DNA of 64,000 nucleotides from Acinetobacter larvae. GTDB lineage: Bacteria > Pseudomonadota > Gammaproteobacteria > Pseudomonadales > Moraxellaceae. Within the stretch, counting starts at the first letter, position 1. Each line of letters opens with the position of its first letter. Location of the stretch: the NCBI RefSeq assembly GCF_001704115.1, contig NZ_CP016895.1, positions 2,976,001 through 3,040,000 of the forward strand. The letters are read 5' to 3'. The notes under the pieces were generated by a model that did no database searches, was not told where the DNA came from, and saw only the letters and a list, made by a program, of their open reading frames with translations. The translations under genes and the position numbers were made by a program. Shown here piece by piece: positions 7,728-34,945 of the stretch.

Positions 7728-7982
7728 ATGGCAGTTGATGTAAAGGTTTATTCAACCAATTCTTGCCCTTATTGTGTACGTGCCAAACAACTCTTGGAAC
7801 GTAAAGGCATTGCCTACACCGAAATCAACTTATCCAATGAAGATCCGGAAGTACGCATGACCTTGATGCAAAAAACCAAGCATCGTACTGTGCCACAAAT
7901 TTTTATTAACGATGAGTTTATTGGTGGTTTCGACCAACTCTACGCCTTGGAGCGTGAAGGACGACTCGATTCATATTTATAG
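7728..7982 (+). CDS. grxC: Glutaredoxin 3
   Basis: An 84-residue glutaredoxin with the redox motif CPYC at residues 13-16 and the cis-proline segment TVPQIFI near residue 63, followed by GGFDQLYALE, which binds glutathione. It reduces protein and glutathione mixed disulfides in the cytoplasm. It is in line with the rhodanese gene and secB. The TAG stop is the first three bases of a 16-bp tandem duplication. Confidence 0.95.
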   Translation: MAVDVKVYSTNSCPYCVRAKQLLERKGIAYTEINLSNEDPEVRMTLMQKTKHRTVPQIFINDEFIGGFDQLYALEREGRLDSYL

Positions 7983-8538: not shown

Positions 8539-8547
8539 ATGCCTGTA

Positions 8548-33334: not shown

Positions 33335-33883
33335 TGCGACCCAGCGCTACTATGCATAATGCTAGCTAAGCCAAAACATACCTATCTGCCCATCTTCGCG
33401 ATGGGCAATTGTTGAAATCTAATCGTGCTTCACGCTACTCATCATAAAAACGGCCAAGGCAGACTCGCTTTAGGTTTTGGCATAGGCTATTTTGAAGGGC
33501 TCGCGGGTGACAATCAATTACACCAGCATCACGCCTAGCAACTGAGTTTTTGTTTCACCCCTACCACTTAAGGTTTCTTGATTGCTGCAAATACAGTACA
33601 TCGTTTGGAACAACAGTGTTGTTGCTCAATTTACATCGATATCTCACTACAACGGCACATCAGGTCGAATTTGCAGACCAAGCACACCTAAGCTATACCT
33701 GTACTTCCTTAAACAATAAAAGCTGTATCCAAAATTAAAATAGCCGTTTCGTTCAATTTTAAAAAATCATAACCAGACATGATCGTAACTCACAAAATGA
33801 TTGGTAGATCATGCAATGTGTCGGTAATGGTTTGAATTTCTCTTCGGCTAAACTAGACATTTTTATTTTGGGATTACAAAAGC
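33335..33883. other. 549-base gene-poor stretch left of the putative Xer module
   Basis: No complete gene is supported. It contains a small hairpin (TGCCCATC at 33387-33394, GATGGGCA at 33400-33407) that may end the sspAB transcript, and a short coding-like remnant at 33428-33538. A 62-codon frame at 33550-33738 has low-complexity content and no family signal. The region leads up to the dif-like site at 33884. Confidence 0.6.
33428..33538 (+). pseudogene. Possible gene remnant
   Basis: A 37-codon stretch containing NGQGRLALGFGIGYFEG and ending in TAG. It has a Gly/Phe-rich, protein-like composition but no start or length for a full gene, so it may be the decayed end of a lost gene. No family is assigned. 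Confidence 0.3.
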
Positions 33884-33911
33884 ATTTCGCATAACCCCCA
33901 CTATGTTATAT
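33884..33911 (+). mobile_element. Putative dif/pdif-like XerC-XerD site (left)
   Basis: A 28-bp site with XerC-type half ATTTCGCATAA (33884-33894), 6-base spacer CCCCCA and XerD-type half CTATGTTATAT (33901-33911). The second half matches the classic XerD arm TTATGTTAAAT at 9 of 11. The inner CGCATAA equals the XerC arm of E. coli dif, and ATTTCGCATAA/ATTTCGTATAA is, to my knowledge, the common XerC arm of Acinetobacter pdif sites. The stop codon of the enclosed gene lies in the XerD half. Confidence 0.7.
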
Positions 33912-34431
33912 GGGGATCAAATAGGTTGAAAATTCTTTTACCAGGATAATCGTTTAAGTACTTATATTGGCTATGTCTATAATATTCATTCCAATAACTT
34001 ACCATTCTTTGATAGGTTACAATTGTAAGATCATGATTATTATTTATAAATTCAATAAAAAATTCTTTATTTTTTTCAATAAATGGGTATATATCATTGA
34101 TGATTTCTACCACATATTCGCCAACTAACAAAAATATATAAGGGATCATAAAATCTTGAAATTCGATTTCTATAAGTTTTTTGATCATTTCTTGACGTAT
34201 ATGACCATTAGAGTGTCTAGAATAAAGACAGTAAATTATCGAAAGCTCTTGCGTTGATAAATTATTAAGCTGTGAAAAATTAGGCATATCATTATAAATT
34301 CTATAAGGAATTTCTAGAATACCTCCATTCAAGCAAACTATTCTTTCCCCTGCTCCATTAATGTCAGGTAATAAACTTTTAATGACTTCTATTGGCTGAA
34401 TAGGAAAAGCCTGTTCTAATATATTTTTCAT
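33901..34431 (-). CDS. Unknown protein carried in a putative Xer module
   Basis: A 176-residue frame from ATG at 34431 (a TTG at 34464 would give 187 residues; neither has a clear ribosome site). The protein is rich in Ile, Asn, Tyr and Phe, mostly helical by appearance, with a stretch MIPYIFLLVGEYVVEIINDI near the middle and no signal peptide. It resembles small helical-repeat proteins such as contact-system immunity proteins in composition only; I do not recognise a family. The gene is much richer in AT than its neighbours (about 30% GC by eye) and is enclosed by two inverted dif-like sites, so it was probably acquired by transfer. Confidence 0.75.
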   Translation of the reverse strand: MKNILEQAFPIQPIEVIKSLLPDINGAGERIVCLNGGILEIPYRIYNDMPNFSQLNNLSTQELSIIYCLYSRHSNGHIRQEMIKKLIEIEFQDFMIPYIFLLVGEYVVEIINDIYPFIEKNKEFFIEFINNNHDLTIVTYQRMVSYWNEYYRHSQYKYLNDYPGKRIFNLFDPHIT

Positions 34432-34494
34432 TGATTTTAATGAAATAAAAAATCCCTTTAGCAATCTACTAGTTTTTTAATGTTTCTACAATCA

Positions 34495-34522
34495 ATATAA
34501 TACAACTTATGTTATGCGAAAT
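34495..34522 (-). mobile_element. Putative dif/pdif-like XerC-XerD site (right, inverted)
   Basis: On the plus strand the site reads XerD-type half ATATAATACAA (34495-34505), spacer CTTATG, XerC-type half TTATGCGAAAT (34512-34522). The XerC half is the exact reverse complement of the one at 33884-33894; the XerD half matches the consensus arm at 8 of 11. The pair is therefore in inverse orientation around one gene, the usual plan of Acinetobacter pdif modules. Confidence 0.65.
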
Positions 34523-34645
34523 ACAGCAGTGATTGTTGATTTTTCACAAAATTAACTATATAAAACAATTAGTTATACAATCGCATCATCCCAAAATAAC
34601 ATATTTAGATGTGGCGACCGCCATCCTTAAATCCTATTTGCGTAA

Positions 34646-34751
34646 TCATTCTAAAACTTGCACTAAACCTTTTTTAATTGGCAAATAGTATAACCATGCC
34701 CATTGCCGCTCTAACAGATCAGCACGTTGGCGAATTGCATCGTATGAACCG
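34646..34751 (-). pseudogene. Possible gene remnant (C-terminal tail only)
   Basis: A leftward stretch of about 34 codons including SYDAIRQRADLLERQWAW and YYLPIKKGLVQVLE, closed by TGA. A stop lies immediately upstream, so only a tail remains. It looks like real protein sequence but I cannot name it. Confidence 0.35.
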
Positions 34752-34821: not shown

Positions 34822-34831
34822 AGAATCATGA

Positions 34832-34945
34832 GCTGGCGATGACTTACTCTCACATGGGTAACCCCACACTACCATCAGCGCGAAGAGGTTTCACTTCTGA
34901 GTTCGGGAAGGGATCAGGTGGTTCACTCTTGCTATTGTCGCCAGC
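34832..34945 (-). rRNA. rrf: 5S ribosomal RNA
   Basis: The reverse complement begins GCTGGCGACAATAGCAAGAG and ends with CATCGCCAGC, which pair as the 5S terminal stem. The internal CCGAACTCAGAAGTGAAAC is the universal 5S loop sequence. About 114-116 bases; ends may shift by one or two bases. Confidence 0.95.

Follow-up and report, generated by a model that had tools for sequence, protein, structure and literature searches.

A lone and probably fixed dif module with one cargo gene in the chromosome of Acinetobacter larvae

Is a single gene enclosed by two inverted XerC/XerD sites, standing beside an rRNA operon, a mobile module that has become part of the chromosome? This question is raised by a short AT-rich region in the genome of Acinetobacter larvae, a single contig of 3,741,098 bp. 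The region lies in the window, by which we mean the whole 64-kb stretch of DNA analysed (positions 2976001-3040000 of the contig). From the letters alone, an earlier note had described a one-gene Xer module here, with the arm ATTTCGCATAA at 33884-33894 repeated as an exact reverse complement at 34512-34522, and re-reading of the positions agrees with this. The description is supported by strict site scans and by the precise boundary seen against a second copy in Acinetobacter sp. ANC 4173. We consider it highly probable that the locus is a lone D-type dif module with one cargo gene, now fixed and probably immobile in the chromosome. The features are collected in Table 1.

Table 1. Features of the locus, in coordinates of the window
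Feature	Position	Strand	Remarks
Conserved neighbour (anchor) gene, 221 aa	32669..33334	+	used to locate the syntenic locus in relatives
Remnant IS1202/ISAjo2-type terminus	33853..33878	-	outer end ACA-3' on the + strand
AAAGC	33879..33883	.	5 bp between IS terminus and left XerC arm
Left dif-like site	33884..33911	+	XerC arm 33884-33894 ATTTCGCATAA, spacer CCCCCA, XerD arm 33901-33911 CTATGTTATAT
Cargo gene	33901..34431	-	about 176 aa from ATG; 187 aa if from TTG 34464
Right dif-like site	34490..34522	-	ATTTCG CATAA CATAA GTTGTA TTATATTGATT; register from the ANC 4173 alignment
5S rRNA	34831..34945	-	near the end of the rRNA operon

The XerC arms of the pair point outward and the XerD arms inward, which is the D type. 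As in known dif modules, two 11-6-11 sites stand in inverse orientation, the right one deviating by a 5-bp duplication beside the spacer. Compared with TTATGTTAAAT, the arms six bases inward match at 9/11 positions on the left (CTATGTTATAT) and at 8/11 on the right (TTGTATTATAT). These values of the earlier note were reproduced, but the register it had used for the right site was wrong. The alignment with ANC 4173 gives a right site of 33 bp with the XerD arm at 34490-34500 (TTATATTGATT), the spacer at 34501-34506 (GTTGTA), and a second copy of CATAA at 34507-34511, a 5-bp tandem duplication that separates the XerC arm from the spacer. Both sites are altered beside the spacer; in the left one the first base of the XerD arm is changed from T to C, and in the right one the XerC arm is displaced by 5 bp. 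The spacers of the two sites are also unlike (CCCCCA and GTTGTA). The practical rule is that fixed 28-bp patterns miss or misread relict sites, and that comparison of two copies recovers the register.

A strict scan of the 64-kb window, with the XerC arm wholly within the degenerate consensus and the XerD arm matching at 9/11 positions or more, returned exactly two matches, the left and the right site. In 60 first-order Markov resamplings of 64 kb, two matches were found in total and no inverted pair within 3 kb. Genome-wide, a pattern allowing up to three mismatches gave 12 matches (the main dif and a site at 1306595 each being counted on both strands) against one in the reversed control, and the sites of the locus had two mismatches each. 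At these stricter thresholds, with one control match and no chance pair, the many equally good random matches that the earlier note had named as speaking against a module did not turn up. A looser pattern gave 16 matches genome-wide against 12 in the control, with two mismatches in the left site and three in the right. Since this pattern separates poorly from its control, the sites by themselves are suggestive of a module, and the comparison with ANC 4173 settles it.

In ANC 4173 (stretch L029) a cargo gene with 88% identity stands between intact-looking inverted dif-like sites. The left site, at 7938 (+), reads ATTTCGTATAA CGTGCA TTATGTTAATT, and the right site, at 8541 (-), AATTTGTATAA TCGCCA TTATGTTAAAT. 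Between the sites, 533 of the 575 aligned bases are identical in the two copies. Outside them, the two flanks give 28 and 32 matches over 60 bp (random median 30, 95th percentile 34), 83 and 81 over 150 bp (median 78, 95th percentile 84), and 162 and 162 over 300 bp (median 158, 95th percentile 168). The homology stops at the sites and not at the ends of the gene, so that gene and sites occur as one precise unit in two unrelated chromosomal places, as judged from one other copy. We regard this sequence comparison as the strongest evidence for the unit. The absence of a precise boundary at the sites, which would have counted against a module, was not what we saw against ANC 4173, the one close copy found. 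The locus of another genome of the genus, G125, is identical to that of ANC 4173, leaving one independent close copy at the DNA level. The context in ANC 4173 is prophage-like; a phage Rha-family regulator is present in the neighbourhood, and IMG/VR lists part of the stretch as a predicted virus contig. A third dif-like site lies 45 bp outside the ANC 4173 module (L029:7865-7965), forming a tiny gene-free C-type interval in the stretch predicted as viral by IMG/VR. The enclosed gene was also sought on plasmids, as the earlier note had proposed; the module had no DNA match, and the gene no close copy, in 72,556 plasmid records, and carriage as a plasmid pdif module was thus not seen.

Ahead of the left XerC arm stands an IS-type end, ...GGGATTACA, followed by AAAGC. 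Elements of the ISAjo2 type insert 5 bp from a XerC arm and have the ends TGT/ACA, according to the available text of PMC10132070. The locus resembles this group of the IS1202 family, as described in that text, in its ACA end and in the spacing of exactly 5 bp, and differs from it in having the terminus only, as no ORF for an ISAjo2-group transposase (441-457 aa) is found beside the module. The genome has a single match to the combined pattern of terminus and arm, and the control has none. Genome G107 (L042/L076) has the same layout of terminus, 5 bp and arm beside an intact dif site, adjoining a 390-aa transposase frame that scores 427.5 bits against NCBIfam ISNCY (cut-off 250).

We propose that the unit came from another replicon, by XerCD acting either on transferred DNA or on compatible sites (through cointegration, or through insertion together with a C module next to it). 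The C partner would have been lost, and a dif-targeting IS1202-type element would have landed 5 bp beyond the left XerC arm and then decayed. As the sites are inverted and their spacers unlike, excision by XerCD would be impossible and inversion difficult, so that the unit would now be fixed chromosomal cargo. DNA uptake with homologous recombination would leave the same picture as this route of entry. The changes beside the spacers suggest that the native sites are impaired. Given the damaged sites, the unlike spacers and the inversion, the module is most likely fixed and probably immobile. In the available part of PMC13141974, a site with the same change in the first base of the D arm is called 'likely inactive', and single C or D modules are described as not excisable, their sites being inverted. 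The part of PMC11705084 at hand reports that the ATAA-central region-TTAT motif sets binding and cutting, and that no deletion occurs between inverted sites with unlike central regions.

It is unlikely that the module is still mobile, with XerCD tolerating the changes and the unit moving by cointegration and resolution with a plasmid of compatible spacers. The layout of the sites, with one of each spacer/D-arm class, is as in modules in use, and recombination despite a one-base spacer mismatch is reported in the same part of PMC13141974. However, the left D arm carries the change of the site called inactive there, the right C arm is displaced, plasmid records hold no DNA match to the module, and the IS terminus has decayed, suggesting age.

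The surroundings of the module bear on a second alternative, in which the gene is vertically inherited and the dif-like sequences bordering it are there by chance. As the earlier note had stated, the locus adjoins an rRNA operon, with the 5S rRNA next to it and tRNA-Ala and tRNA-Ile beyond. The anchor gene on the other side, which has no Pfam or NCBIfam match, is present in 162 of the 173 genomes of the genus, the present one included. Its downstream side was examined in 10 relatives, and in seven of these the 5S rRNA follows in the same order within the stretch examined. The cargo gene and, at the site threshold used, the dif-like sites are absent in all 10, including the seven syntenic ones. 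This presence/absence comparison, called for by the earlier note, involves relatives whose anchor identity is at most 58%, too diverged for a base-exact empty site. The closest of them (anchor 58% identical) has two other long ORFs in the same gap, and genes thus come and go between anchor and rRNA operon. A segment at 33455-33551 of the window, which lies in a gap with no long ORF and has matches of 70-72% identity at other places in two further Acinetobacter genomes (L041, L044), looks like a gene remnant. Another, at 34606-34683 between module and 5S rRNA, matches places in many genomes of the genus at 72-84% identity and is possibly a gene or RNA remnant.

Vertical inheritance would fit the distant relatives of the cargo gene, which stand in ordinary chromosomal rows without dif-like sites, and the many control matches of the loose pattern. 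It is nevertheless very improbable, as the gene is absent from the syntenic locus in seven of seven relatives, the homology with ANC 4173 stops at both sites in an unrelated context, and the stricter scans give few chance sites and no chance pair. Just as improbable is transport of the unit by an IS1202-type element or a two-element composite instead of Xer recombination, for which the terminus 5 bp outside the left site might speak, but the spacing is explained by the targeting of dif sites by such elements (PMC10132070, available text), in the right flank of the module the terminus finds no significant match (15/26; shuffled median 16), and ANC 4173 has the unit and, by the same scan, no such terminus.

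The suspicion of the earlier note that the locus is not the chromosomal dif proved correct. A perfect dif of the main type, ATTTCGCATAA TGTATA TTATGTTAAAT, with the spacer of a terminus-type site, stands at 1846731-1846758. Integrative elements of the CTX-phage type are inserted at the main dif, which gives directly repeated dif-like ends. The ends of the locus are inverted and lie 1.16 Mb from the main dif, which argues against an integrative Xer element of this kind. The chromosome holds three inverted pairs, all of them D modules with the XerC arms outward. The pair 1306216(+)/1306595(-) (unit 1306216-1306622) has two intact-looking sites around one YCII-domain gene of 93 aa. Four records of the plasmid collection match 65% of the length of this YCII module at 78-80%, and most of the other plasmid matches listed are limited to some 55 bp at the end with the site. 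The pair 268316(+)/270595(-) (unit 268316-270622) carries nitroreductase, EamA and MarR genes; one of its sites is intact and the other, on the left, has a D arm that begins with CC, and this module also looks partly damaged. A lone dif-like site with the spacer GGTGTA, at 1007111-1007138, has no partner within 7 kb around.

Chromosomal modules of this type are not as little described as the earlier note had held, having appeared in print in 2018, 2019 and 2026 (PMC6160057, PMC6449649, PMC12907356). The available parts of these papers report a D module of 572 bp and one orf that has relatives in two chromosomes (PMC6160057), extra dif sites in 19 of 20 chromosomes together with a chromosomal terC dif module (PMC6449649, Mindlin 2019), and chromosomal dif modules at length (PMC12907356). 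Our locus has in common with them a cargo between inverse XerC/XerD sites far from the main dif, and both single-gene modules and the D type (C/D-D/C) are described there. It differs in its cargo family, which is not found in those parts of the three papers, in the damaged look of both sites, and in being a lone module as opposed to an island. With the pdif modules of Rep_3/OrfX plasmids, as presented in portions of PMC13141974 and PMC11705084, it shares inverse 11-6-11 sites, unlike end spacers and internal XerD arms. Unlike these, it is chromosomal, with no adjacent C module or Rep backbone seen and no plasmid DNA match. The locus is probably a further, relict example of the Acinetobacter dif modules already in print.

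The cargo gene has a GC content of 27%, compared with 43.6% for the window. The longest frame begins at TTG 34464 (187 aa), but in homologues P0001-P0003 and P0006 and in the ANC 4173 copy the start is an internal ATG (MKN), and the likely CDS is therefore 33901-34431, 176 aa. The frame ends within the left XerD arm, where its stop codon TAG is found (...ACA TAG); the TAA of the ANC 4173 copy is likewise in the arm. Among the six full-length close homologues P0001-P0006, known as proteins only, five have the terminal residues ...LT or ...I that would be expected if the frame ran into a standard XerD arm. For the two module copies, dN/dS is 0.27 (Nei-Gojobori, 172 codons); the gene shows the signature of continuing purifying selection and probably works. 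Relatives occur in seven of 175 genus genomes (own included), and only one other, in G125, is of high identity. The remaining five are 37-52% identical and have no dif-like sites in their loci. Four of them adjoin the same gene row, which we take to be prs-, nadV- and nudix-like. Judging by this shared row, the family at large also occurs as an ordinary chromosomal gene; with no dif-like sites at these five loci, it is not as a whole tied to dif modules.

A protein search returned 38 homologues, none with a precomputed Pfam domain, and scans of the 38 aligned homologues gave no convincing Pfam, NCBIfam or PADLOC family. PDB held no sequence match at E<=1. AlphaFold2 gives a confident model, with no clear match to a known fold, and no toxin partner was found. 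An orphan protective (immunity-type) protein is our weakly held guess for its role. A plasmid of Bacteroides finegoldii (L068:3887-5542) has a distant relative whose neighbours are DUF2750 and SMI1/KNR4 genes, with an integrase and a MobV relaxase nearby, and this stretch may be an immunity-type gene block.

Across the genus, a site pattern allowing at most one mismatch, and missing sites with more, found at least one site in 171 of 173 genomes and at least three in 146 (median 9); the reversed control gave one match in total. Pairs less than 5 kb apart with no other site within 10 kb were called isolated. An exploratory count among the matches listed, draft contigs included, gave 21 D, one C and one direct pair; it took in G001-G013 and G018, and left out two single-site rows of G013, as well as G014-G017 and G019. 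On chromosomal contigs of 18 other, mostly few-contig genomes, the isolated pairs among the matches listed were 19 D and one C, and those of 20 more genomes six D and one C (G000, G006 and G012, seen before, were excluded). Contigs were taken as chromosomal if they had a site beyond 700 kb in the first set, and by our own judgement in the second, where only long contigs were entered. Combined, the 38 genomes outside the set on which the idea was formed have 25 D and two C pairs among the matches listed (binomial p 6e-6 against 1:1, a value that ignores the kinship of these related genomes), and one of these C pairs spans just 101 bp.

The other contigs of the first 18 genomes, among the matches listed, have 61 D, 44 C and 19 direct adjacent pairs less than 5 kb apart, in a tally that left out G114 C2 and C3 (the latter a D pair), G115 C5 and G174 C3, and for which 25 of the 27 rows of G174 were listed. 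Isolated pairs on these contigs, again among the matches listed, are five D, one C and one direct, and the D excess among isolated pairs may thus not be confined to chromosomes. No statement of such a bias was found in the available parts of four papers on Acinetobacter dif modules (PMC13141974, PMC6160057, PMC6449649, PMC12907356). The first of these, in the same part, describes plasmid backbones as C modules. A D bias would follow from this if the backbone is lost after plasmid integration and the D cargo stays, a loss step that we infer. It is quite possible, if somewhat short of probable, that isolated chromosomal D modules are fossils of integrated Rep_3/OrfX-type plasmids whose C backbone was lost and D cargo kept, with the present locus as a late, site-damaged stage.

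Taken alone, the locus is of modest interest, and the D bias is the part worth following. What the locus shows is the apparent end of the life of a dif module, with both sites damaged, the cassette seemingly fixed and the gene apparently under selection. Together with the D bias, it suggests how a plasmid cassette may turn into a permanent chromosomal gene, a route open to testing, in a genus whose cassettes also carry drug resistance.
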